Assembly: GCF_009730915.1 (NCBI RefSeq)
Contig: NW_024086870.1
Location: forward strand, 1 to 64,000
Reading direction: 5' to 3'
Length of the DNA stretch: 64,000 nt
From: Dioscorea cayenensis subsp. rotundata
Lineage: Eukaryota; Streptophyta; Magnoliopsida; Dioscoreales; Dioscoreaceae
Shown here in pieces: positions 1 to 56,615 of the stretch. The first letter of the stretch is position 1. The number at the start of each line of letters is the position of its first letter. The notes beneath the pieces are model-generated. The model had not been told where the DNA came from. It searched no databases and saw nothing but the letters and a program-made list of their open reading frames with translations. Both the position numbers and the translations under genes were made by a program.

Positions 1-2378
1 CGTCGGCAGTTCATGACACTGGTGGTGGTTAGTGAGTTGTTCGTGGGTGGAATGATCATGGGTTTGGTGTCTGAGTTGGGGTTGTGGTTGGTGGTGTTCA
101 GGCAGCTCGTTTATCGCCTGTTCGTTCAAACAGTGGGTGGGGCTGGCGGGCTGCGGTGAACGCGGATGGTGGTTCAGGGCCCTATGGGTGAGCCTCAAGT
201 TAGCCAATGATGACATAGTCATGCTCTGCTCATCTCTGCTCCTCCCCAGCCATACATGCTCTCTCCTCATGGAGTCTAATGAGACCTCGATAGAACGTTT
301 ATGGTGGTCATGGACCATTTGGGGTTTCAGTTTGCTCAAACAGTCGTTGTTCAATTAGTCAGACAGGGTCAAACCAGGCTGGTTATGTGGAATTTGGTTT
401 CTGAGACGAGACAACTGTCGGACCCGGTTCTTGGGCTCCGCAGACAGGCTCAGGCTCAGATCTCAGCCAGTGTGGACAGGGCTCGATGGCGGACAGGGGT
501 TCGTGAGATGTTCATATCCAGTCATGGTTAATCAGTGTCTAATGCAGCCTGGGGTCTCAGGAGGTCACAATTTCTCACTCAGGGTTCAGGCCCATGTGGG
601 GTTTGGATCACTCAGACAGACATGCACAATTTCAGCACGCTGCGTTCCTCAGGGGTCAAGTCGGTCTTAGCCAAAATATTTTTGCGTCTCATTCTTTTGT
701 AATGTGTCCGTTCTTAAAACAGGGCAATGGGTTCGTTTTCGTGGGACCATCGTTTTTAAGGCATCGTTTCTTCGTGGAGAACTCGTTTTAGACCTCGTTT
801 TTAAGCAGTTCATCGGAATGATGATTTGCGGTGGGTTGATCAGTTATCATCGATTAATCCTCTTGTCGTTCGTGTTGGGATTGGAACAGGCGATCATTTG
901 TTGAGCGTGGGCGCAGTGTCGCGGGAATGTCGATCGGATTAGGCTCGGGACAGCGGGCATGGGAACGGTCGGATTGTTTGTTATGTGGATAATGATGTTT
1001 ACATTAAAGATTGGGTTGTGGAAGTTGGGTTAGCATGATTCGATTCTCTTCTGAAAACAGACTTTCTCTTCTAAACAAAAGAATTGGAGTTAACGCATGA
1101 AAAAGAAGCCATCGTCTCATTGCCATCGAAAACTCAATTGTCGCTTCGCCATGAGCTTCATTTTCATAATCTCCATCATTCACTCAAACTCATTCTTCTT
1201 GACCGCCGTTTTTTAAATAGAAAACTCATTTTTTAAATAGAAACATTGATATTTAAACAAAAAAAAATCAATATTTACATGACAAATTAATCCTGGGTAT
1301 AAAAACTAATTAATCTTGGCCACTCGTACATATTTAAATAGAAACAACGATATTTAAGCACTTTTTTAAACGTAAACGCAATATATTAAACAGAAACATC
1401 AATAGTTAAACAAAGACAAACAAGCATAAAGATGGTCGTTTTTTATTATATGGAGATAATGATATTTACATTAAAAATTTAATAAGTTTGTGGGAAAAAT
1501 TTAGGTTAGCATGATTATATTTTAACTACAAACAAACTTATAACTACAAATAAAATAATTTAGGTTAGCATAAAGAGTAATGCATGTACTCATTTCTTAA
1601 ACAGAGAATTCTTAAACAGAGCTCATTTCTTAAACAGAAATCTAACAGAAACCTCATTTCTTAAACAGAAATCTCATTGTTTTAAACAGAAAACTCATTT
1701 TTTAAACAGAAACATTGATATTTAAATAGAAAAACCAATATTTGCGGGACAAATTAATCCTGGGTATAAAAACTAATTAATCTTGGTCACTCGTACATAT
1801 TTAAATAGAAACAACGATATTTAAGCACTTTTTTAAACGTAAACGCAATATATTAAACAAAAACATCGATAGTTAAACAAAGACAAACAAGCATAAAGAT
1901 GACCATTCTTTATTATATGGAGATAACGATATTTACATTAAAAATTTAATAAGTTTGTGGAAAAAATTTAGGTTAGCATGATTACATTATAACTACAAAC
2001 AAAAGAATTTAGGTTAGCATGAAGAGTAATGCATGTACTCATTTCTTAAACAGAAAATTTATTTTTTTAAACAGAACCTCATATTTTAAATAGAAACCTT
2101 ATATTTTAAACAGAAGGCTCATGTTTTAAATAAAAACTTATTGCACCCAAAGGCATTATAGTTAAACCCTGTTACACTTGCCACAGCTTCCCACATAAGA
2201 GACAATTTCGTCAAAAAAATTTCAAATTAACTATATCAATCACTATGCTTGAGGGGTTTAAAAAATCATTATATGCAAAAGAAAAAGATTTTTATGAATA
2301 TTCAAATTTAGGGGGAGAATCTGTGCATATTGCAAACTTTGGGGGTGTTTTTAGCAATTTCCACTACAAAATAACATA
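1..2378. mobile_element. Right-hand part of a non-autonomous TIR element (candidate)
   Basis: No gene is recognisable here. Bases 1-980 are richer in G and C than the neighbourhood and hold only short unconvincing reading frames. Bases 980-2130 carry a degenerate tandem array with many TTAAACAGAAA-like motifs. The last 60 bases (about 2317-2378) resemble the right end of the element at 57615-60051: both read, in order, a CAAA(A)TT block, a GGGGA block, an AAACTTT block, GGGGTRTTT and GGCAATT/AGCAATT, and end near CAC. I infer that the window begins inside a related element whose right end is near 2378. The left end is outside the window, so neither a target duplication nor the inverted partner can be seen. 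Confidence 0.42.
980..2130. repeat. Three-copy degenerate tandem array, period about 465 bp
   Basis: The phrase 'ATGGAGATAATGATATTTACATTAAA' (broken here as ATGGAGATAATG + ATATTTACATTAAA) followed by GGTTAGCATGATT occurs near 1450 and 1917, with a diverged copy near 985. The spacing is about 455-470 bp. Inside each unit a short phrase of the form TTAAACAGAAA(C) recurs many times, with CATTTCTT or CATTTTTT spacers. No coding potential is seen. Confidence 0.7.
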
Positions 2379-2433
2379 TTATCCTAACTTTTATATTAAT
2401 GCATTTTCCATAAATGCAAAGACAACCTCAGCA

Positions 2434-2457
2434 ATATATATATATATATATATATAA
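2434..2457. repeat. (TA)n microsatellite
   Basis: A clean TA dinucleotide run lies downstream of the DUF1664 gene. The stretch 2379-2778 otherwise holds only AT-rich sequence that probably includes that gene's 3' untranslated region. Confidence 0.9.
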
Positions 2458-2778
2458 ATACACCCATCAGGCAAGCCAAATGAATAAAAAGAACAGGGTC
2501 ATATAACAAGTTCAATTTATATTCATGATAAACTCAAGTAAACTTGATCAACAAAATGAGTAACCTACCAACAGTTAAGCCAAGGAAGAGAAACACCCTT
2601 ATTTTTAAAATCTTGTACGCGACAAATCCAGTAGAGGAGTGTGGACGGTATATACAGTGTCTCTCACAACTCACAGTAACAAGAATAGAGTAATTAATAC
2701 GCCAGTGATTCACTTGGTCCACTTCTAGCAGAGTGGCCTACATGCTTCATTGGACTTGGGTTAACATAACAATCTACA

Positions 2779-5700
2779 TCACCACTTTATGGAAGCAGTC
2801 CTGCAAGAGAATCACTGGTGTTAGAAAGATTAAAAGCCTGGATGGTTTCTTGTTTTGAAGAGGGAAAAAAATCCCTAAACGTTACTGCAAGAATTCATAA
2901 AAAATAATCAATTTGATGTTAGATAAACAAATAGAATTGATCAAGATGATGATCAGCCATAAGACTGCCCTGCTCCACAAAAGTGTCATGAAAAATTTTA
3001 GAGACAGCATTATCATGTAATATGGGCATGGTTGTAGGTTTCATAGCTGTTTGTCTGCTGTTATAGCAAGGTAACAGTAAATATTTTTCAGACCTGTAAT
3101 GTAACAAACAATTCTTGCAATTGAATAATGCACACATCTATACAAACCCTCAACCGGACAAGAGCATTGAAAAGCCGTTAACTGTGCCTAGGCTAACATT
3201 CATATTAGTTTTAATATAATTTGAGTGGTAGAGCCTGTTTTCAAAATCTTCGTCAGGGAAACATGGGATATGTCCTACCACAAAAAATGGAGATTGGATG
3301 GCAAGGAAGCATAATTAGTTAGAACATTTTTCTTTATTCATAGTCAGACAACACATAAATAACCTTCAAACATGAGAGGCAAGATCTGATATTAGACACT
3401 GCATTAAATCCTTGTGCGCTAAGCATGAATTGCATCACACATGATCATCACCAAATATGAATTTGCAAGTGGCATGGGCATAATAATTTTGGTTCATACA
3501 TTCACAACCATGACTGCTGAATTATAATATGAAAAAGACTAGTTCAAACCTGGACACTCCCTTCAGGTCCAAATCATTTTGCAAGCCCGCATCTATTTTG
3601 GACTCGTCAAGATTTCCAGATTCTGCTATGTGCTGAAGACCCTGTTAGGAGAGCAAAAGAAAGATAGCAACAGATGTCAGGCAATCTCTTTGAGTAATCA
3701 ATTTTTTCTATAATCGGAAACTTTGAACTTAATGAAAATTATTAAGTATGGACCCAATGATATGGTGGACCCAATGATATGAATGCAAAATCATGGAAAA
3801 ATGAACAAATCACAAACACTATATCAGGAGGAGAGAGTATAGAAAAACTCAAACGAGTTCCTCAAAAACCATTTTGAATTTCCACTTTAGAATTTTGGAA
3901 TAGGACCTTCAAAATTCCGTCTCCATGATTAATGTAAAGGCGCTTTCCAGAAGGCTTGGGCAAATCCTGCAAAGTTCATCAAAAGTATCTTAAAAATATG
4001 GGATGGAAATATTCCAGTTTGTACACAACAGTCAAAAAGAGCTTGGCATTTTACTTGCACACTAAAAAAATCTCAGTAAAGAACCATTAATCATTGGAAA
4101 TATGGGATGGAATAAAAAAACATACAAAAAGTAAAGTCGGAGGATTTTCTAGGCTTCGAAATACTGAATATCAAAAGTTTCTCAACTCAATGAGAATGCG
4201 TAACACATTTTACTACTACATGCGAACACCATCACATCAATATCACACAGAATCCCGTTAAGATATCCTTCACGTTTTCATTACAAAAATATTATCAGCT
4301 TGCCGTGTAAAACAAATGAGCTTTTCACACAAGCTTAGGAGAATGGCATTCTATTTCATGTGCAACAGAAACACAGTTTAGAGAACAATAATTAATAATG
4401 AGTACAAATACTCATGTCAATCAAAACAAATACTCATGCCAATACTCATGTCAATCAAAACAATGCACAGTGGCAGAGAGTCATTAAAAGATAATCAATG
4501 TACTGGAAAACACAAATGCAATGTGTTATACCCCTCAAAACATAAAATCTATAACAAGATGAGCATAAAATAATGAAGGAAATAATTTCACAAACCTGCA
4601 GGTAATCAGGCAATTTTGCACCTCTTTCTCCAATGAAATTGCAGATATATGCGACGCCAGCACAAGTGAAATCCTATTATTGCAATTTGTCAATAAAAAA
4701 AATACCAGATAACTCCATAAAGTGTCTAGCATGTAATTTAAATAAGCTTCCTTAAACATAATAATAAATAAGACCAGACAATTTATCAGGAGATCAAGAG
4801 ATTTTTGCTTTGTGCTATTATTTCTAGATTATATAGCAAATTTAGGTATTATGAGCAAAGAAAAGGTACATATATATCCGTCAAAATGAAAGAAATATAA
4901 CATACTCTAATTTTTTCTTTGTCAAGAATGTCTCATGAGATTTTAAGTCCATCACATATTTCATATTTCAAGAAAAGTTACATATAAACTATTGGCCCAC
5001 AATTATCATAGTACAATTTGCATTCAAACACACATATCGCAAATCAGATGTTATCATTACCTTGTGGAAGAATATGCAACACTAAAATGCAGCAGGCATA
5101 GAAAATACGATTGGTATGATTTAAAATGAATTCTGGTTACATTTCAAAGGACACCAAGTTTTTCAAACACCAACTTGGAAGCTTATCTGATACTGATCAA
5201 CATGATTTAAAAATCAGTTACATTTTCAATCCAAAATGAAACAAAATTCCTACAGTTATTTTGATCACAACTTCAGCAATCAAGGTTTTAGTTAATTCTT
5301 TGTAATAAATGCCTTTAAAACAGTAAAATATTCTAAAATTTCATAAAAACACCACAAATATTCTTAACAAAATTTTTATCTCCGTAACTAAAATAATATA
5401 CTTTTAGCCCATTTTATTATTTGAATTATTATAAATGTAGTGTCATCTTTCATTTACTCTTCCCATCACTCACCACAGCAGAGTGTGGCAACATCTGTAT
5501 TCAACAATCAACAGACCAAACTCCCATGTCATACAACTTCCACGAATTAAAGGCTTGCTTTTCCAACACTAAGGCTTAACAATAACCTACATTCTCCATC
5601 TACCAACCAGCTTGCTGGGATGAAATGAACATGTCCATATCTTGAATTGAATCACATAAAATTGTTTATCAAAATTTTTTGCCTTTGACAGGAAACAGAA

Positions 5701-10192: not shown

Positions 10193-10207
10193 TTTTTGCA
10201 AATCAGG

Positions 10208-13200
10208 GCGCTTATCATTTATCATTTATTATCCCACAACTGGATCACTTTATTTCCCAGATCTTCTCAACTGGTCCTCCCCAGATTTGGCTCGGACCAT
10301 TCTCCCATTTGCCTTGACTTCGGAGATAACTCTTCGCGTCCCCGATCGTTTAAGTTTGAGAAATTTTGGTACAGTGATCCTCAACTTGTCTCCCTTATTC
10401 AAGATTGGTGGGCAGAATCGAACCCTGTGGGTTGTGGTGCCTTCATTTTCTCTAAAAAACTTGCTTATCTGAAATCCAAGCTTCGCTTTTGGGCCAAGAA
10501 CACCTTTGGTGCTTCCAAACTACTTAAATCCAGCCTCCTCTATGAACTTAATGCCATTGACGTCATTGGTGAATGTAGACCCCTCTCTGAGGACGAATCC
10601 TCCCGACTCTCCCAGATTCGATCTGAGCTCTATACTATCCTAAATCAGGAGGAAATCCTTTGGAAGCAACGTTCTAGAATCACTTGGCTCAAAGAAGGGG
10701 ATTCAAATACTAAATTTTTTCATCTTGTCGCAAATGGCAGGAGAAATTTAAACTTTATCCCTCGCATCTTTCATAATGATCTTTGGATTGATGGAAATGA
10801 GCAAATTGGTAGGATCTTTACTGATCACTACCATTCTCTCCTTGGCTCTCCTTATCCAAACAGATTCATCCTTGACTGGCACTTCCTTTTTGATTATAAA
10901 GAAAGAGTTGACCTTTCCCATCTTGATTCACCTTTCACTCTTGTTGAAATTAAACAAGCTGTTTTTGATCTCAACCCTGACAAAGCTCCTGGACTGGATG
11001 GTTTCCCTATTCTCTTTTTTCAAAATCACTGGACCCTCCTTCAGGATCCTATTGTTAATTTATGCAATGACTTTTTTGCGGGCTCTATCAATCTTGAGCG
11101 TATTAACTGGATCAACATCGCTCTTATCGCAAAAAATAACACGCCAGGAAATGTTGCTGATTTTAGACCCATCAGTCTTATCAATTCTACCTGTAAAATT
11201 ATTTCTAAGATTCTCGCTAATCGGCTTAGCAAAGTAATCAGTATTCTGGTGGACGATTCTCAATCTGGCTTCATTAAAGGAAGATGCATCACGGAAAACA
11301 TTGTTGGAGCCCAAGAAACTATTTTTAATTTGCAGAAACGAAAATGCCTTGGTTACGCTTTCAAAGTGGACTTTGCTAAATCTTTTGATTCCCTTGACTA
11401 GAACTTTCTCTTTGATATTCTTGCAGTTAGAGGATTTGGTCCTAAATGGATCTCTTGGATTCATACTATCCTTAGCACTGCCAAGATTCAGTTCCTCATT
11501 AATGGTACCACTCAAGGCTATGTCAGATGCAAAAGAGGTTTGAGGCAAGGAGATCCTCTTTCCCCCTTACTCTTTGCCCTCGCTGCTGATGCCCTGAGTG
11601 CAATGTTCTTTCATGCACTAAGATCCAAAGTACTTGTGGGCGTACCTTTAAATCAATCGGTTAATTTTTGTCATTTTCAATACGCTGATGACCTCTTAAT
11701 CTTCACTGCTGGAGGTCAAGAAGATCTTCTGGCTTATCCATAAATTACTCAAAAAGCTGCTTGTTCTCTACAAACTACGGATTCCAACCACACCACTCTT
11801 CTGCCAGAATCCTAAATTGCTCCAGAAATTGCCTACCAATAACTTATTTAGGGATTCCTCTTTCTGGCCGTAGACCAAGGCGTTTAGACTGGGCAAAACT
11901 CACTAGCATGGTCCGATCTAGACTCACATCTTGGAAAGCAAATTACTTATCCCTTGGTGGACGCTTAACCCTTGTGAACTCTGTTCTCTCCACCATTCCA
12001 GTTTACTGGATGTCTGTCTTTAAGCTTCCTATTTGGGTGATCAAAGAAATTGATCAAATCCGAAGGGATTTTCTTTGGAAGGGCCCTGACCTGGGCCCTA
12101 AAGGAATTAGGCTGATCGCCTGGAATAGGATTTCTAGACCACGCGAAATGGGAGGATGGGGTATTCTCAACCTTCAGGAATTTAATAAAGCTTTACTTGG
12201 GAAGTGGTGGTGGAAATTATCTTGCAATCTTAACTGTGGGTGGGCTAAAATCATACAAGCTAACTACTCTCTCACCGGTTCTAACGGTTTATTGTACCAC
12301 ACTCCTCCTAAAAATAAATCCTTCTTTTGGGCCGGAGTGACCTCCACTTTACTACCCTTTCGATCTTGCCTAAGCAAAACTATCAGAAGTGGTTCTAACA
12401 CATCTCTTTGGTTTGATCGTTGGCACGCTGGGCTTGTTCTTAAAGATATTTGGCCAATTCTCTTCTCGCAATGTACTTTCCCTGGGATAACCATTAGGCA
12501 ATTTTCTCAACTTCTTAATAATCTTGAGATGTTATTCCCTTCTGTCACTCGCGACTTGTTATCTCCTATTCTGGAAATTATCCCTGATTGCTCCCCTAAC
12601 CAAGATGACACTCCTACCTGGGCCCTTGAAAAAAATGGAATTTTCACGGTCAAATCCTTTTACAAATTCCTTATTGATGGTGGCTTGCGCAGCTCACATC
12701 ACTCTCTCTTTTGGAAAATTCGTTGCCCTAGGAAAATTACTCTTTTCTGTTGGCTTGCAGGGGAAGACAAAATTCTTACTCTTACAAACCTTTTCAAGAT
12801 TGGGTGTAATACTCTAAATTCCTCGGATACCTGTGTCCTTTGTCATAATGCCTCTGAAAGCCTGAATCACCTTTTCCTAAACTGTGATTTTTCTAAGCGT
12901 ATTTGGGCTTTTTACGCTCAGGCCTTAGACTTAAATTCTTCACCTCAATCTATCACCTTGCTGTGGAACTCTTGGATTTCTACCCTCACCTCGGAGCTTC
13001 GTATTCTCTGGGATCTTATCTCCCGTACAATCCTGTGGAACATTTGGATCGAACGAAATTCGCGTATTTTTCACTTGAATGCGTTACCGCCTTACAATAT
13101 TATGTTTAAAAGTGCTAATATGCTTTTTTCTTGGTTCTCAACAGCCGCTGAAAGCCATCAGCAATCTTTCAATGACGCTTCACAGAAGATCAAGCGCTCA

Positions 13201-13455
13201 CTCAACTTTCTCAGTACTAGAGCCCCAAATCCTGTTGGCGACTCTGACCCTGATGCTGCACAGGAGTAGTTGCTTCTGATGTCTTTCTAGGAAGGCCTGA
13301 GATGCTAGACGGTGTCTTCCGCCTACTTAGATTTTTCTCCTTGTATTTTTTCCTACTTTGCTGTATGTTGTCTCTCCTCACTTCTGGTGATAGGAGTTTC
13401 CTACTTTGTACTGTCTTTCCCTTTTCAATAAAACTGTGGTTTATCCACATTTATT
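10208..13455 (+). mobile_element. 5'-truncated, broken LINE (L1-type plant non-LTR retrotransposon)
   Basis: The coding part runs from the end of an apurinic endonuclease domain (LPRFGSDHSPICLDF, 10196-11401 frame) into a reverse transcriptase with the boxes DKAPGLDGFP, DFRPISLINS, GFIKGRCITENI, RQGDPLSPLLF and catalytic FQYADD, and then a zinc-finger zf-RVT region (CPRKITLFCW ... CVLCH ... HLFLNC) up to the stop at 13267-13269. A TAG at 11399-11401 replaces the usual Trp codon after SLD. After YADD the frame changes near 11740, apparently through a short internal deletion. The 5' UTR, the first ORF and most of the endonuclease are missing, so the copy is dead. The 3' UTR reaches about 13455; no clear poly(A) tail or target duplication is seen. 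Confidence 0.92.
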
Positions 13456-13605: not shown

Positions 13606-14627
13606 TCATTTTGCAGATGATCTGAGTTTATGAGACACATAAAATCCAACGGAGAGAGCAACAACAGCAACAAGAATAACCTTCTTGTTGTTGTTAATCC
13701 TCTCAATCAAACTATCAAGCATTCCATGGTCTAACCATCCTTCTTCTCTGAACTTTCTCTTGCAGAGAAGTCCAATTTTTTTCTCATCTTGATCATCAGT
13801 GACCTTCTCCTTTGAACCTTCATCTTGAATATGATCACTCTTCTTCTCATTTGAAGGTGAAACCTTTGTTTGTGATATTTGATCAGCTGCCACCTTTTCT
13901 CTCTCCTCAATCTTCTTCTCATGATCAGTTGGAGGTGAAGTCATTGGTTGTGGTATTTGATCAGCTGCCACCTTTTCTCTCTCCTCAAGCTTCTTCTCAG
14001 AAGTTGGAGTTGAAGTCTTTGGTGGTGATATTTCATCTGCCACCTTTTTACTCCCCTCAATCTTCTTCATCTTCTCAACTTGTAGTGCATCCTGCTTCTC
14101 TCCTTGTTCAATCTTCTTGCTATCAATAGAAGAAGGAAGAGGTTTTAGTGGTTCTTGATTAATCTCGTTTGGTTTCTTTTCTTCAGGTGCCATTGGCTTA
14201 ACCATCTTTGGTATAGTAAGAACAAGGCATCCATCATCAAACTTGCCGGCGATCTTCTTATAGTCTGAATCTTGAGGCAGATTGTAGATCCCATCAAGGA
14301 GGACATAAGTGTTCTTCTCTGACTGTCTTCTTCCCTTGATTGTTAGCTTTCTTGTTTGGTCTACTTGAACACTGAAGTCCTTCCTATTGAAACCTTCATA
14401 TCAAAACCAGAAGGTCATAAGCTATATATTAAAGAAACTAAACAAGAAGAAACAAAAATAATTAATGCATATATATATATATATATATATATTAGGAGTT
14501 GAGACAAAGAGAGACCTGGAAGATTCACTCTAAGAAGGTAATTGGAACCTTCATCAGACCGTTCAAAGTTTGGGGAAAAGTTTACAGTGGTTGGTGGGAG
14601 GGTTTTCATTCTTCTAGTTCTATCCAT
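13606..14627 (-). CDS. RTM2-like protein A: HSP20/alpha-crystallin domain plus C-terminal membrane anchor
   Basis: Exon 1 is 14627-14516 and exon 2 is 14393-13606, joined in frame through LPG|FNRKDF to 299 residues. The first 105 residues form a small-heat-shock fold: a NYLLRVNLPGF beta strand, then DFSVQVDQTRKLTIKGRR, then KKIAGKFDDGCLVLTIPK. A Lys/Glu/Pro-rich charged linker follows (about 110-245), with roughly one intact and two diverged 26-residue repeats (REKVAADQ type). A conserved end comes last: WLDHGMLDSLIERINNNKK, a hydrophobic anchor VILVAVVALSVGFYVSHKL and four residues. This architecture matches plant RESTRICTED TEV MOVEMENT 2-like proteins, some of which restrict potyvirus long-distance movement in phloem; that role is not shown for this copy. 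The intron holds (TA)n. Confidence 0.86.
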
Positions 14628-16457: not shown

Positions 16458-17922
16458 TCATTTTCTAGATGATCTGAGTTTATGAGACACATAAAATCCA
16501 ACAGAGAGAGCAACAACAGCAACAAGTATAACCTTCTTGTTGTTGTTAATCCTCTCAATCAAACTATCAAGCATTCCATGGTCTAACCATCCTTCTTCTC
16601 TGAACTTTCTCTTGCAGAGAAGTCTAAATTTTTTCTCATTTTGATCATCAGTGATCTTCTCCTTTGAACCTTCATCTTGAATATGATCACTCTTCTTCTC
16701 ATTTGGAGGTGGAACCTTTGTTTGTGATAGTTCAGCTGTCACCTTTTCTCTCTCCTCAATCTTCTTCTCATGATCAGTTGGAGGTGAAGTCTTTGGTTGT
16801 ATTATTTGATCAGCTGCCACCTTTTCTCTGTCCTCAATCTTCTTCTCATGATCAGTTGGAGGTGAAGTCTTTGGTTGTATTATTTGATCAGCTGCCACCT
16901 TTTCTCTGTCCTCAATCTTCTTCTCATGATCAGTTGGAGGTGAAGTCTTTGATTGTGGTATTTGATCAGCTGCCACCTTTTCTCTCTCCTCAAACTTCTT
17001 CTCATGATCAGTTGGAGGTGAAGTCTTTGGTTGTATTATTTGATCAGCTGCCACCTTTTCTCTCTCCTCAATCTTCTTCTCATGATCAGTTGGAGGTGAA
17101 GTCTTTGGTTGTGGTATTTGATCAGCTGCCACCTTTTCTCTCTCCTCAAACTTCTTCTCATGATCTGTTGGAGGTGAAGTCTTTGGTTGTATTATTTGAT
17201 CAGCTGCCACCTTTTCTCTCTCCTCAAACTTCTTCTCATGATCAGTTGGAGGTGAAGTCTTTGGTTGTGGTATTTGATCAGCTGCCACCTTTTCTCTCCC
17301 TTGGATGGGCTTCATCTTCTCAGCTTGTAGTGCATCTTCCTGCTTCTTTCCTTGTTCAATCTTCTTTTCATGATGGAAAGGAGAAAGAGCATGTAGTGGT
17401 TGTTGCTTAATCTCTTCTGATTTCAGCTTTTCCTCAGGCATTGGCTTAACCATCTTTGGTATTGGCAGAACAAAGCGTCCATTAGCAAACTGGAAGGTCA
17501 TCTTTTTATTGTTGTCTGAATCTTGAGGCAGATCGTAGGTTGTATCAAGAAGGACATAAGTGTTCTTCTCTAACTGTCTTCTTCCCTTGAATATTAGCTT
17601 TCTTCCCTGGCTTACTTGAACAGTGAAGTCCTTCCTATTGAAACCTTCATACCAAAATTAACCAAAAGGTCATAAGCTATTAAAGAAACTAAACAAGAAG
17701 AAACAAAACATTCAATTCATCATTAGGCTTCCTGCATGCATGCATATATATATATATATATATATTAGAAGTAGTAAGAGATATATAGAGACAGAGAGAG
17801 AGAGAGAGACCTGGAAGATTCACTTTAAGAAGGTAATTGGAACCTTCATCAGACAGTTCAAAGTTTGGGGAAAAGGTTATAATGGTTGGTGGGAGGGTTT
17901 CCATTTTTCTATCCATGGCCAT
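16458..17922 (-). CDS. RTM2-like protein B with expanded 26-residue repeat array
   Basis: Exon 1 is 17922-17811 and exon 2 is 17644-16458, joined as in copy A to 432 residues. The start MAMDRKMETLPP is used; the Met at residue 3 is equally possible and aligns with MDRT in copy A. The HSP20-like region covers about residues 10-110 (NYLLKVNLPGF, DFTVQVSQGRKLIFKGRR, MTFQFANGRFVLPIPK). The linker holds seven complete 26-residue repeats of the type REKVAADQI(P/I)QPKTSPPTDH..KK(F/I)E(E/D), then a diverged eighth. The conserved C-terminal WLDHGMLDSLIERINNNKK and membrane anchor VILVAVVALSVGFYVSHKL are nearly identical to copy A. RTM2-like identity is by architecture, and function is inferred only. 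Confidence 0.86.
16752..17302 (-). repeat. 78-bp in-frame minisatellite inside RTM2-like B
   Basis: Seven tandem 78-bp units each encode a 26-residue charged repeat. The phrase GATCAGCTGCCACC recurs every 78 bases (for example near 16808, 16887 and 16965). Units differ by a few bases, mainly at the I/P, F/I and E/D positions. Copy A has only about one intact unit at the same place, so the array expanded or contracted after the duplication. The period is a multiple of three, so changes in copy number keep the frame. Confidence 0.92.
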
Positions 17923-51330: not shown

Positions 51331-51339
51331 TACAATATA

Positions 51340-51610
51340 GAGTAATGCTACACCAACCGAAAATTTTGTCCGAACTTCAATCCCGAATGACGTGGCTCAC
51401 CACTCTCTCTCCTCATCAGCCCACCCCATTCGTTCTCTCAATTCAGCTAATTTTTTTCATTCAATTTTTTTTAAAAAAGCTCACCACTCTCTCTCCTCAT
51501 AGTCAAAGATGACTCTTGCTCTCATCTCCAGAAGGACAGCAACTAACTAGGGCCTGCGACTTCCTGCAACTTCCGGCAACCTTGTTTTCTCTCCCACGAT
51601 TCTTGCCCTC
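51340..51610 (+). repeat. Left terminal inverted repeat of the MULE
   Basis: Pairs with 56479-56144. Only a few differences are seen (for example TTGTCCG here against TTGCCCG, and CTGCAACTT against CTGCGACTT), apart from the missing block of about 65 bases. Confidence 0.92.
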
Positions 51611-52557
51611 GTGGTGACGACTACAACCTCGCCCACAGCTCTCACCGCCTAGGTCTCCATTAGCGTCGACTCCGGTATCGCCGTCGGTGAGTTGGTATGG
51701 GAGTGAGGAGAGGGTTCAACGATTTGTTTAGGAATGTCGCAATGGTAAGAAGCGCAATATCCATAATCAAGGAAAGGGACCCAATAGATTCGAAGACTAT
51801 GTGATGAGATGAATTGGTGATTTGCACATGGATTAGTTACATAATTAATGATGAATGTTTGTAATTACGAGAGTAAGGAATCAGGGAGGTTGCTATTGTT
51901 TTGGAAAATTGTCATAGCATGGAACATGTTTGTTGAAATGCCAGGTCACTTGTTTGTTTCAATTCGGTTACAATTTTGTATAATCACAACTATAATCACA
52001 AATTAAAGCTTTTTTTAGCCACATATGAATCATTTTGAGTTTCAATTCGGTTACAATTTTGTATAAGCCACATTATACACACAAACACTCAATCCCACGA
52101 GACAAAATAGCAAAACAAAAAAAAAATGAGATAGGAATCAAAGAGCAACCACTCATAAGGATCTTCAGAAGCTGTGTTACACTTTGAGCTATTCAAATAG
52201 TACATAGAAAAATTACAGCAAGAACATATTATGCCAAACCAAACAAGTTTAGACTCCCATAACATTTCATTGTAAGCCAAACCAACATAACATGTTATGC
52301 CAAACCACCATAGTAAGCTAAAAACAACATATGAACAAAAACTTGGGATATTATGCTGAGCATAGGCCAAACAAAACTGGCAGCACAATTTGATTTCCAT
52401 TTAACCAGCATATTAGCAAAGCAATGCCCTGTATCACAAAAAGAACATCTTAATAAAAAACCCAACAAGAAAAGAACACACCAATAAGAAAAAAAAACTG
52501 ATATAACTTACACAGACTAGTCCATTCCTAGGGTACAATATAGAAACCCCGCCATTC
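51611..52557. other. Internal left arm of the MULE
   Basis: The first 110 bases are GC-rich and exon-like, ending in CGTCG|GTGAGT, a good plus-strand splice donor. They might be a second captured gene fragment, but no protein family is recognised. CAATTCGGTTACAATTTTG occurs twice, about 80 bases apart (near 51960 and 52040). The remainder is the 3' flank of the transposase gene. Confidence 0.4.
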
Positions 52558-55184
52558 TTATTGTTGTAACTGCATCACCTTAAACACCAGAAACTATAAG
52601 AAGAAAAACAATGAGAAAATGAAACAATATCCATAATATATACAATTGACATATAACCAATATTACTAGTCAATGTAAATTTTGTTTACCTGTGAAGAAG
52701 CATCAAGGCTATGATTTTGTGAATTGAAACTATCAATAGGCATAGTCATTACATCTACATGAGAATTCGAATTCACCTAAAAAGAACAAAATATAATTCA
52801 ATATATTAAAAATATTTTGTGCAATATCAAGATCATTATAAAGTATGTAACTAAAGATTACCACACTTCCTTGCGTACACAATTCAACTTGTATGTTGTT
52901 TTGAGCTTGTATGTTCTTTTTTGTTTGAATTTTCTGAAATCAACAACATTAATTTTAAACCATAAAAATAGTTATATAACTGAAATGGAATGATGTAAAA
53001 TATAAGTACCTTTCTTTTATTTCTAATGATTAGTTCTTCAACTTTTGACTTCTTTCTCTTTGATGGTGGCCGGCCCTTACTCCGTACTTTTAAAGGAGTT
53101 AGGAATTTTTTGGTTGAAGATGTAATTTGATGGTGCTCATGGCCTTCTTCCAAAAATATTGGTGACATAACTTGATCTGAATGGCTCTCCCAATAGTTTG
53201 TATCATCCATAAGCTTGTCTATTGCGACGTCCACAGATTTCATCAAGAAATGATATTTTTCATTGGATTCTATGGCAATTTCAGCAGCTTTAGAAAAATG
53301 AGAACATAATTTGCTGTAACGTGCTTTTTGTTCATTGGTTTGTGCATCATCATAACAATTCCTCACATAAGTATGCCTCCGTTTAGTATCTTTTCTCCAC
53401 CGGGGTAAAATATATCGAGATGGAATCTCTTTCACATTCTTTTCAATAAGAACTTTGCATATATGTCTACACAAAATTCCTTTAAATTCAAAAAGACGAC
53501 ATGAACATTTGATATCAAATTCAATCTCGTTGTAAGAAATGTTAAATGCCACTTGCCTCCTGAGTCTGCCATCTTTCCCTCTAAAAATGTCAGTCACTTG
53601 AAATGTGCATGTTTGCCCATCTGAATTGGTAAATGCGAGATTGCAATATAACATTCCCCGTAAATCATCTTGGAACAACTTAAAAATTTCATTGGTGTAG
53701 GTTTCTTGTAGTTGCTTCTCAAAATGACAATCAGTTAACATCGGAAAGCTTGTATTGAATGAAGCAAAATCAGCCTTGTTTTCTTTCTCGATCTTACTTT
53801 TTAATGCATTATCATATTGCTCCATAAATTGTTTGAGAGATGTTGTTGGACCAACATAACCATCAAAAAAAGCATTTATACTTTCACTTCTTTGGGTTGT
53901 AGACATTCCAGCCCAAAAAACTCCTTTAACATACACCGGAGCCCATCGTTGACGATTCATGTATAAAGAATTCAGCCACTCATTTTTTTCAATCTTATAA
54001 TCCTTAATCATCTTCAACCAAATATCTTCAAATTCTTCAGTATGTTGTGCCTCATAAACAATACTTTTCAAAACTTTCTTTATTTCTTTATACTGTGTTA
54101 GCCCCCCAAGCTTCTCAGGGACCTTTTTCATAATATGCCAAAGACAAAGACGATGATAAGAATTTGGAAAAACTGCCCTAACTGCACCTTGAATAGCCAT
54201 ACACTGATCTGTAATTATTGCCTTAGGAGCCTTGCCTGACATGCATTCTAACCATGTTCTAAACAACCAAATATAAGTTTCTGTATCTTCCTTTGATAAC
54301 AAACCACATCCAAATAGTATAGTTTGCCCATGGTGATTTACTCCAACAAATGGAGCAAAAGGCATATCATACTTATTTGTTAGGTATGTTGTGTCAAATG
54401 ATATAACTTCACCAAAAGATTCATAGGCTACTATAGATCTTGCATCTGCCCAAAACACATTTCGTAGTCTACCTTCCTCATCCATATCAATCAAATGAAA
54501 AAAATTTGAATTTCTCCTTTGCATGCGAGAAAAATAATTGCCGAGAGCTTCTGCATCCCCAACACCAAGCCTGAACTGTCTTGCTTTTGCAATATAGTTT
54601 CGACAATCTTTTTCTGTATATGTTAGATTTTCAAACCCACCACTTTCAACCGCTAAAGAATGAAAATTTTTACTCAAACCAATACCTGCTTGGTCATTTA
54701 ATTCAAGCCTTCTCTTCACATATGCATCCAATTTTTTATTGCATTTTTGAAATCGAGATTTTTGGGGACTTAGTGCATGATTATGCTCAAAATGAGTACG
54801 AGAAATAGTACAACACCCATCATTACCAACAATAACATTAATCCTAGCTTGACAGTTCGTTTTGGTGGATAGCCTAGGATTGAAAGAATTTTTTGCAGTA
54901 GATATTCTTTTACCACCACGTACACATGCAAGTGTGTAATATTTGATTTTTCCATCTTCTCCTGATTTTGTTGTTCTTTTTGTAATGCCAAACCCCTCTT
55001 GCTGAGCATACTTAACATAAAAATCGTAAACTTCTTCTTCAGAATAAAAAACCATGCCTGCCTTTGGAATAATATTTTCACAATGTAAATCCTCCATATC
55101 TACCATTTTTTCCTTCTCTTTATTTGAGGCTTCAAAACTAGAAGACCTGACTTCTACCTCATTTAGGTTATGTAAATCTGCCAT
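52558..55184 (-). CDS. MULE transposase, FAR1-related (FAR1 zinc finger, MULE DDE, SWIM)
   Basis: Exons 55184-53010, 52933-52862, 52776-52690 and 52578-52558 join to 784 residues. The Met of MADLHNLNEVEV is chosen; an upstream in-frame Met (55226) adds 14 unlike residues. The FAR1 DNA-binding region covers about residues 45-140 (FYVKYAQQEGFGITKR, TNCQARINV, HFEHNHAL). The MULE DDE domain follows with VISFDTTYLTNKYDMPFAPFVGV, KAIITDQCMAIQGAV and LCLWHIMKK; the second and third acidic positions are D in ITDQ and probably E in RSESINAFF. A SWIM zinc finger CSCRLFEFKGILCRHICK lies near residue 575. A nuclear-type basic patch GRPPSKRKKSK ends the long exon. There are no stops or frameshifts. It could be labelled an FRS gene by similarity, but its place between terminal inverted repeats marks it as the element's own transposase. 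Confidence 0.9.
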
Positions 55185-55199
55185 ATTACTACTGGTTCT

Positions 55200-55360
55200 G
55201 TAAATCTGCCATGTAGAAATCAGCAAAAAATTGTTTATATTGATGCCTCAATTTATGGACTACCAACAATTGTTCTTTAAATCTGCCATATTACTTATAC
55301 CTGGCTTCAAAAAAATTTTATATTGATGCCTCAATTTATGGACTACCAACAATTATCAAA
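55200..55360. repeat. Short tandem duplication upstream of the transposase
   Basis: TATTGATGCCTCAATTTATG plus GACTACCAACAATT occurs at about 55237-55271 and 55321-55354, a period of about 83 bases. AAATCTGCCATRT also occurs near 55172, 55203 and 55279. The repeats create the extra upstream Met of the transposase frame. Confidence 0.8.
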
Positions 55361-55768
55361 ATAAATTGTTTGAAGCTGGGCATATTAATTCCCATTTTCA
55401 GTGCATGCTTATATAAATCAGAAATTAAAATAGGAATTGTGAAGGTAAATTAGAACAATTAAATTTCTTTAAAAAAACTAGTTATCACAAATATAAAGGA
55501 AAATACATGTTCTACATATTCATGGAATATAGTAGCATGACTTATGAAACAAATAACTGAATTTAATAATTTCCATTAATAATTTCCATTTTAACCAAAA
55601 GGCAAAGAAAACATCTAGCCCCAGTCCTGGTGATGAAAATAAGTATACTTAGAACATATCCATTTCATGATATGAACCCAAAAGAAAGGAGAACACAAAA
55701 GCATAGCAGCAAGAGATAGAGATCGTAAAAGCATTTATAGAACCAATCCCCAAAATGAAGATATATAC

Positions 55769-56077
55769 CTTGATGAACTCCTGATAAAAAACAGCTGCAG
55801 CCTCAAAATCTGGTGCCGAATTCCCAACCAACGGCAGCGAGCACTGCACAAGAAAACACAATGAAGAAATAAGGGAAATTAGAGAGAAAGGAAGTAGATA
55901 GGGATGGATTCCTCTTACGGCTTTGACGACGAAGCTTCGATTCAAGGAACGTCTCTGGGTGGAGGTCAAGTGGGGAGACCGAGGACATGCAAAGCTGTAC
56001 CTCAAACCATGGAAGGACTTGGGGATGGCAATGGACCCCGGGCAAGGATGGAGTCTCCGGGCGATCGAAGAGAGCAA
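55769..56077 (-). pseudogene. Captured fragment of a chloroplast 2-Cys peroxiredoxin (BAS1-type) gene
   Basis: Two exons with their intron are preserved. Exon 1 (56077-55919) codes 53 residues resembling a chloroplast transit peptide (ARRLHPCPGSIAIPKSFHGL ... RSFVVKA) and ends at a good donor (GCC|GTAAGA). Exon 2 (55843-55769) codes SLPLVGNSAPDFEAAAVFYQEFIK and ends at a GT donor. The family sequence is PLVGN.[24 protein letters not shown], so E-to-A and D-to-Y changes have occurred. The catalytic FVCPTE part is absent. It lies between the right terminal repeat and the transposase, in the same direction, as in Pack-MULE gene capture. It cannot make an active peroxiredoxin. Confidence 0.85.
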
Positions 56078-56143
56078 GGAGTTGGAGATGAGAGCAAGAG
56101 GATGAAAATGATGAGCTTTGACTCTTTTCAGCCTGTGGGGAGA

Positions 56144-56479
56144 GAGGGCAAGAATCGTGGGAGAGAAAACAAGGTTGCCGGAAGTCGCAGGAAGTCGCAG
56201 GCCCTAGTTAGTTGCTGTCCTTCTGGAGATGAGAGCAAGAGTCATCTTTGACTCTTTTCAGCCCGTGGAGAGAGAGTATAATTTGGTTTGTTAGGAGAGA
56301 GAATGAGTGGGGTGGGCTGATGAGGAGAGAGAGTGGTGAGCTTTTTTAAAAAAATTGAATGAAAAAAATTAGCTGAATTGAGAGAACGAATGGGGTGGGC
56401 TGATGAGGAGAGAGAGTGGTGAGCCACGTCATTCGGGATTGAAGTTCGGGCAAAATTTTCGGTTGGTGTAGCATTACTC
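56144..56479 (-). repeat. Right terminal inverted repeat of the MULE
   Basis: Inverse of 51340-51610 plus a block of about 65 bases. The blocks TGATGAGGAGAGAGAGTGGT and GACTCTTTTCAGCC each occur twice inside or next to it, so this arm has an internal duplication that the left arm lost or never had. It probably carries the promoter for the minus-strand transcripts. Confidence 0.92.
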
Positions 56480-56615
56480 TACAATATATTGACAGCTGTA
56501 TATCACACTGTTGGTTTCTCTCTCTTTGCATTTTCTCTCTATCTCGGCATCTTTTTGTTTCTTTCTTTTTAAACTTTGACGATGTTGGCAAGTTGACTTA
56601 TAATTTATATTATAT

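Follow-up and report, generated by a model that had tools for sequence, protein, structure and literature searches.

What is a fragment of a peroxiredoxin gene doing inside a transposon that also encodes an open transposase? The question is raised by the window analysed here (the whole 64,000-nucleotide stretch of Dioscorea cayenensis subsp. rotundata contig NW_024086870.1), which contains a 5.1-kb Mutator-like element (MULE) with terminal inverted repeats (TIRs), a target-site duplication (TSD) and an open transposase. The initial annotation had proposed such an element with a two-exon fragment of a 2-Cys peroxiredoxin gene (BAS1), and the TIRs, the TSD, the 766-aa frame and the BAS1 match all bear this out. 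The ends of the element were corrected, and lie at 51340 and 56479, each flanked by TACAATATA.

MULEs were recognized by TIRs of 100-500 bp, a TSD of 9-11 bp and a MULE transposase domain, and the element has all three. The TIRs are ~300 bp long, with two collinear arms, and the TSD is identical at 9/9 bases. Pfam searches of the transposase identified MULE (PF10551, E=2.6e-36), FAR1 (7.6e-14) and SWIM (2e-8) domains. The frame is uninterrupted, as expected for an autonomous MULE; its final ~35 codons may run into an intron. Domesticated FAR1/FHY3 genes lack TIRs and TSDs, whereas this element has both. No ULP domain was found by Pfam in the two frames scanned, those of the transposase and of the captured sequence. 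The inner parts of the TIRs (51519-51582 and 56172-56235) are ~80% similar to sequence adjoining a CCCH zinc-finger fragment in the leader of a related element on contig C1188. Given this resemblance, the TIR may have grown into captured DNA.

Table 1. Features of the MULE and of the host-derived sequences it carries (positions in the window)
Feature	Position	Strand	Remarks
Left target-site duplication TACAATATA	51331..51339	.	
Left TIR	51340..51610	+	in two collinear arms, with 97% and 99% complementarity to the right side
CCCH zinc-finger (AtC3H23-like) gene pieces, left end of the element	51601..51731	+	sense inward from the left repeat
Transposase ORF	52884..55184	-	766 aa; ATG at 55184, stop 52884-52886
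Tandem duplication where captured intron 2 meets the transposase start	55195..55354	.	period 83, 2 copies
Candidate 3' splice site TACATGGCAG of captured intron 2	55206..55215	-	predicted in-frame join of exon 2 and transposase
BAS1 intron 2, 5' part	55211..55768	-	deletions and tandem duplication; intact GT donor
BAS1 exon 2	55769..55843	-	75 nt; encodes peptide PLVGNSAPDFEAAAVFYQEFIK
BAS1 intron 1	55844..55918	-	75 nt, GT..AG
BAS1 exon 1, 3' part	55919..56053	-	transit peptide without start codon
Right TIR	56144..56479	-	
Right target-site duplication TACAATATA	56480..56488	.	

BAS1 sequence makes up most of the stretch between the right TIR and the transposase ATG, from ~55211 to 56053. It starts in exon 1, of which the 3' part is present, and continues through intron 1 and exon 2 into intron 2; its orientation is that of the transposase (both minus strand), as originally described. 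The retention of an intron with its splice sites was also seen correctly, as intron 1 is complete. Of the extent first proposed (55769-56077), positions 55769-56053 stand, 56054-56077 are not BAS1, and the capture continues through intron 2 to ~55211. Donor-like sequence terminates at TGCTGATTTCTACAT, ~26 bases 5' of the transposase ATG; the few bases shared at this junction (CAT) are too few for a mechanistic argument. BLAST covers 55315-55768 with gaps, and the last bases of intron 2 were placed by alignment with the copies on C11 and C15, because the 83-bp tandem duplication disturbs that region.

A captured transit-peptide start codon had been reported but is missing, as similarity to the donor starts 62 nt past the A of its ATG. 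Nor does the BAS1 frame contain an ATG in the interval from the last stop upstream to the ATG of the transposase. Thus, neither the peroxiredoxin-started upstream ORF nor the ATG-started chimera envisaged from this codon follows from the capture. The captured frame (153 aa) had no match in Pfam, a query too short to be informative.

Alignment with the BAS1 gene of the same genome, the check that the initial annotation recommended, recovered an intact donor with its introns on contig C14. The genome search (window positions 55700-56100 as query) returned at least 16 match rows, one of which is this intact gene model. It has seven exons and encodes 262 aa with an AhpC-TSA domain (E=2.4e-41), and its best PDB sequence match is 5zte ('2-Cys peroxiredoxin BAS1, chloroplastic'). 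The genome thus holds the BAS1 counterpart on which the proposal had been made to depend, and the element-donor match (E=2.9e-77) is far beyond chance, so chance similarity was rejected. The captured segment corresponds to donor positions 3588-4995 minus 4070-4189 (~1.4 kb), and is clearest in the C15 copy.

Other BAS1-like loci were rejected as donors. A locus on C5 matches the entire protein length, but shares just 49% identity with the C14 protein in exon 1. In aligned pieces, similarity of the element to the fragment at C15:10957874 (L013) is mostly 77-80%, with one 36-bp piece at 89%, compared with 84-89% between the C15 copy and the C14 donor. No later BAS1 exons were found at L013 within the 7 kb examined. 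This locus carries a longer BAS1-like stretch from exon 1 to intron 2 (2072-3195, 79% over 1068 bp). Fragments of BAS1 intron 1-exon 2 also occur at L014 (~3020-3234), L017 (~2443-2706) and L018 (~3039-3246), with 71-78% identity to the donor and 82-86% among themselves; the repeat of the window MULE has no match at these loci. L014 and L018 have ~700 bp in common, which suggests that another dispersed family took the same BAS1 piece earlier.

The BAS1 capture is present in at least four elements (window, C11, C15 and C138). Donor positions 4070-4189 are missing from all of them, and this shared gap indicates that a single capture event is behind the four copies. Each has its own perfect 9-bp TSD (TACAATATA, AACAAAGAA, TTTTTAAAA and ATATATAAT), all A+T-rich (computed for the window and C15, read by eye for C11 and C138). 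Insertion of a MULE next to a BAS1 pseudogene was rejected on two grounds: the BAS1 part is enclosed by the TSDs, and the capture is common to four copies at different sites. A fifth element (C16, 1.4 kb) retains ~60 bp of exon 1; a matching TSD was looked for in this element and not found. Without correction, the C15 copy differs from the donor by 11% in intron 1 and, within intron 2, by 3% in the first part and 10% in the later part. At the rice substitution rate quoted in the available text of PMC4858842 (1.3e-8), this would place the capture, crudely, at ~1 to 4 million years ago.

How might host sequence act in this position? We consider it probable, with appreciable doubt, that the BAS1 sequence became the spliced, noncoding 5' leader of a potentially autonomous FAR1-type MULE transposase. 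A FAR1-type MULE took up ~1.4 kb of BAS1, reaching from an exon 1 that lacks the ATG through intron 1 and exon 2 into the first part of intron 2. Transcription may start in the right TIR, by analogy with MuDR; TIR promoters drive the MuDR genes and the internal regions of Pack-MULEs, according to the accessible part of PMC3310237. The BAS1 exons would act as a noncoding leader, and both introns would be spliced, the second to an acceptor just 5' of the transposase. Such splicing would remove most upstream ATGs (from 22 to 5, counted from the element end), and translation would begin at the transposase ATG without production of a peroxiredoxin peptide. The leader slot itself may be a permissive landing site whose content is exchanged now and then, since other host fragments are found there in sister lineages. 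Counting against the leader model, the signal of selection on the transposase is weak, five upstream ATGs persist after the hypothetical splicing, and the intron-2 acceptor is only a candidate, which differs in C15.

All four copies retain the splice donors of the two introns and the acceptor of intron 1. Also against the model, intron 1 is close to the minimum length of plant introns, and conservation of the leader is loose, as exon 1 is rearranged in C11 and C138 lacks about two thirds of the transposase; C138 also has frame-breaking changes in exon 2. The window copy matches the donor at 87% in exon 1 and 92% in exon 2, compared with 94% in intron 1 and 95.5% and 78% in the first and other parts of intron 2. 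In the other copies, exons likewise have no consistent lead over introns. Because the captured exons are not better conserved than the introns, selection on a peroxiredoxin peptide is not visible in any copy.

The exons evolving like introns would also suit a fragment that is neutral cargo, in an element that is becoming a Pack-MULE and whose transposase is poorly expressed or silent. The state of the related copies fits as well. The window copy is the only one of the four BAS1 carriers with an open transposase: when aligned with its frame, the transposases of C11 (722 codons) and C15 (721 codons) contain 4 and 2 stops, respectively, as well as frameshifts (thus 2/4 copies are broken in this way), and C138 has lost the front ~two thirds. 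Against this stand the fully open window ORF and the pattern of substitution. Window dN/dS is 1.03 versus C11 and 0.55 versus C15 (both broken copies), 0.20-0.28 versus C18, C1 and C14:3161542, and 0.14-0.16 versus C4, C14:5080893, C5 and C1188. The post-capture branches (window alone plus the window/C11 stem) carry 21 nonsynonymous and 14 synonymous changes, compared with 50 and 12 private changes in the two broken copies (stops excluded; Fisher p=0.034). The binomial p for 21/35 is 0.0055 at a neutral fraction of 0.799, and 0.009, 0.031 and 0.055 at transition biases of 1, 2 and 3, so the post-capture branches look constrained at the lower biases and the signal is non-significant at 3. From this weak signal, the transposase probably stayed constrained after the BAS1 capture. 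The results favour, without proving, a transposase that is still useful with its BAS1 leader, and we regard neutral cargo as a less likely but credible account.

It had also been suggested that the fragment could feed a chimeric protein, with splicing fusing the transit-peptide/peroxiredoxin frame to the transposase as an N-terminal extension. On paper, the exon-2 frame joins the transposase without stops at TACATGGCAG in the window, and a join is possible in C11, but none of the AGs examined in C15 would be an in-frame acceptor. Together with the missing ATG in the captured frame and the unconstrained exons, this makes such a protein very improbable. Another proposal is that element-derived small RNAs matching BAS1 exons and introns lower BAS1 expression, or that the need for BAS1 shelters the element from silencing. 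The high identity to the donor in exon 2 and at the start of intron 2 is compatible with this, and the available portion of a review (PMC13317346) describes sequences captured in maize as siRNA reservoirs. However, the stretches common to element and donor are short, and we consider a silencing link improbable.

The noncoding-leader reading, which we prefer, can be set beside the leaders of related elements. The transposase search yielded 458 first-look candidates, of which 40 were scored. In a transposase tree of 13 rows, the BAS1 carriers form one clade (100/99), adjoined by a clade of C18, C1 and C14:3161542 that has a different leader; the BAS1 carriers, the C18 type, the C4 type and the C5 type are each a supported group. 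Leaders were compared by BLAST at a sample of nine loci beyond the BAS1 carriers (L048-L056, five of them listed). One leader is common to C18, C1 and C14:3161542 and another to C5 and C14:5080893; a donor was not found for either. The leader of the C21 element, examined in translation, likewise yielded no donor. Within the leader common to C4 and C18:9974913, a stretch of 504 bp matches an extensin-like locus on C64 at 85% identity. This stretch recurs in leader-like matches on C416, C1204 and C6:20189343 (outside the 40 scored transposase rows), and on C7 and C1990, as on C64, without most of the leader. The surrounding C64 locus passes Extensin_2 in Pfam; the captured stretch alone gave weak unrelated Pfam and PDB matches, apart from Extensin_2 at E=1.2. 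It appears to hold an exon end with a splice donor.

The C1188 leader contains a CCCH zinc-finger fragment that matches an open CCCH gene on C8 at 92% along 121 bp. This gene is one open frame, so the fragment brings no known host splice site. Pieces of a CCCH gene also lie at the left end of the window element, matching gene positions 470-508 at 90%, 669-743 at 84% and 757-774 at 94%; an open gene of the AtC3H23-like CCCH kind is present on C8 (L068). A separate locus (G000:C9:29735494-29736149) matches positions 454-1171 of the C1188 element leader at 83%, and may be a further captured fragment or a nested insertion.

The three traced leader fragments (BAS1, extensin-like and CCCH) are all in transposase sense, a number too small for a test (n=3). 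A broader and on balance unlikely interpretation is that the transposase leader has been replaced repeatedly by sense host fragments, aiding expression or escape from silencing. The corresponding view of the BAS1 case is similarly doubtful, namely that it supplied a host-derived spliceable leader with complete intron 1 signals and the intron 2 splice donor. If repeated replacement occurs, transposase-bearing elements would be active agents of gene capture, beyond a helper role.

Pack-MULEs were reportedly described by Jiang et al. in 2004. They resemble the window element in their long TIRs, 9-bp TSD, captured host exons and intron, and identifiable donor (available parts of PMC8903248, PMC4858842 and PMC3310237). 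The element carries a host fragment with a donor in the genome but, unlike Pack-MULEs, has an open transposase, so the strict label is unsuitable. As far as the accessible text of each goes, one MULE census excludes elements that match a transposase (PMC4858842) and a second one files transposase-bearing MULEs as autonomous (PMC8903248); captures by self-sufficient elements can thus be missed. The KAONASHI/ULP MULEs of Arabidopsis, melon, rice and grapevine also combine a mudrA-type gene with transduplicated host sequence, but the KAONASHI (KI) type consists of non-TIR elements in which a separate gene, reverse to mudrA, carries the ULP protease domain (excerpts of PMC2528002 and PMC13317346). 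The window element instead has TIRs and a noncoding 5' BAS1 stretch, and its sister lineages carry other host genes. Grapevine Hatvine-6, Pifvine-3 and a cellulose-synthase-carrying Mutator family have variable or long 5' or internal parts with host exons and introns, but in the available sections of PMC2528002 are not described as leader replacement up to the transposase start codon. The maize Mu1/Mu2 group has a captured CCCH zinc-finger fragment, comparable to the left end of the window element, but is non-autonomous and from a different host (PMC3276141, in the part available).

Host-gene capture by transposase-bearing MULEs is therefore already known, and repeated leader replacement is what is new. 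The literature search yielded no Pack-MULE with a peroxiredoxin and, by title or abstract start, no report of MULE leader replacement; most subscription journals were outside the search, so absence is unproven. With transposase-bearing copies that differ in their leaders, and with donors available in one genome, this family allows tests of whether captured host introns and exons alter transposase expression and whether capture is the work of autonomous elements.

Elsewhere in the window, two long plus-strand frames (10196-13269) resemble what we take to be non-LTR reverse transcriptase. Two similar minus-strand frames (16732-17298 and 13847-14068) have a nearly identical C-terminal tail and an internal 78-bp tandem repeat, with 7.3 copies in the former and 2.9 in the latter. 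By their sequence, these frames appear to be neighbouring duplicates that differ in repeat number.
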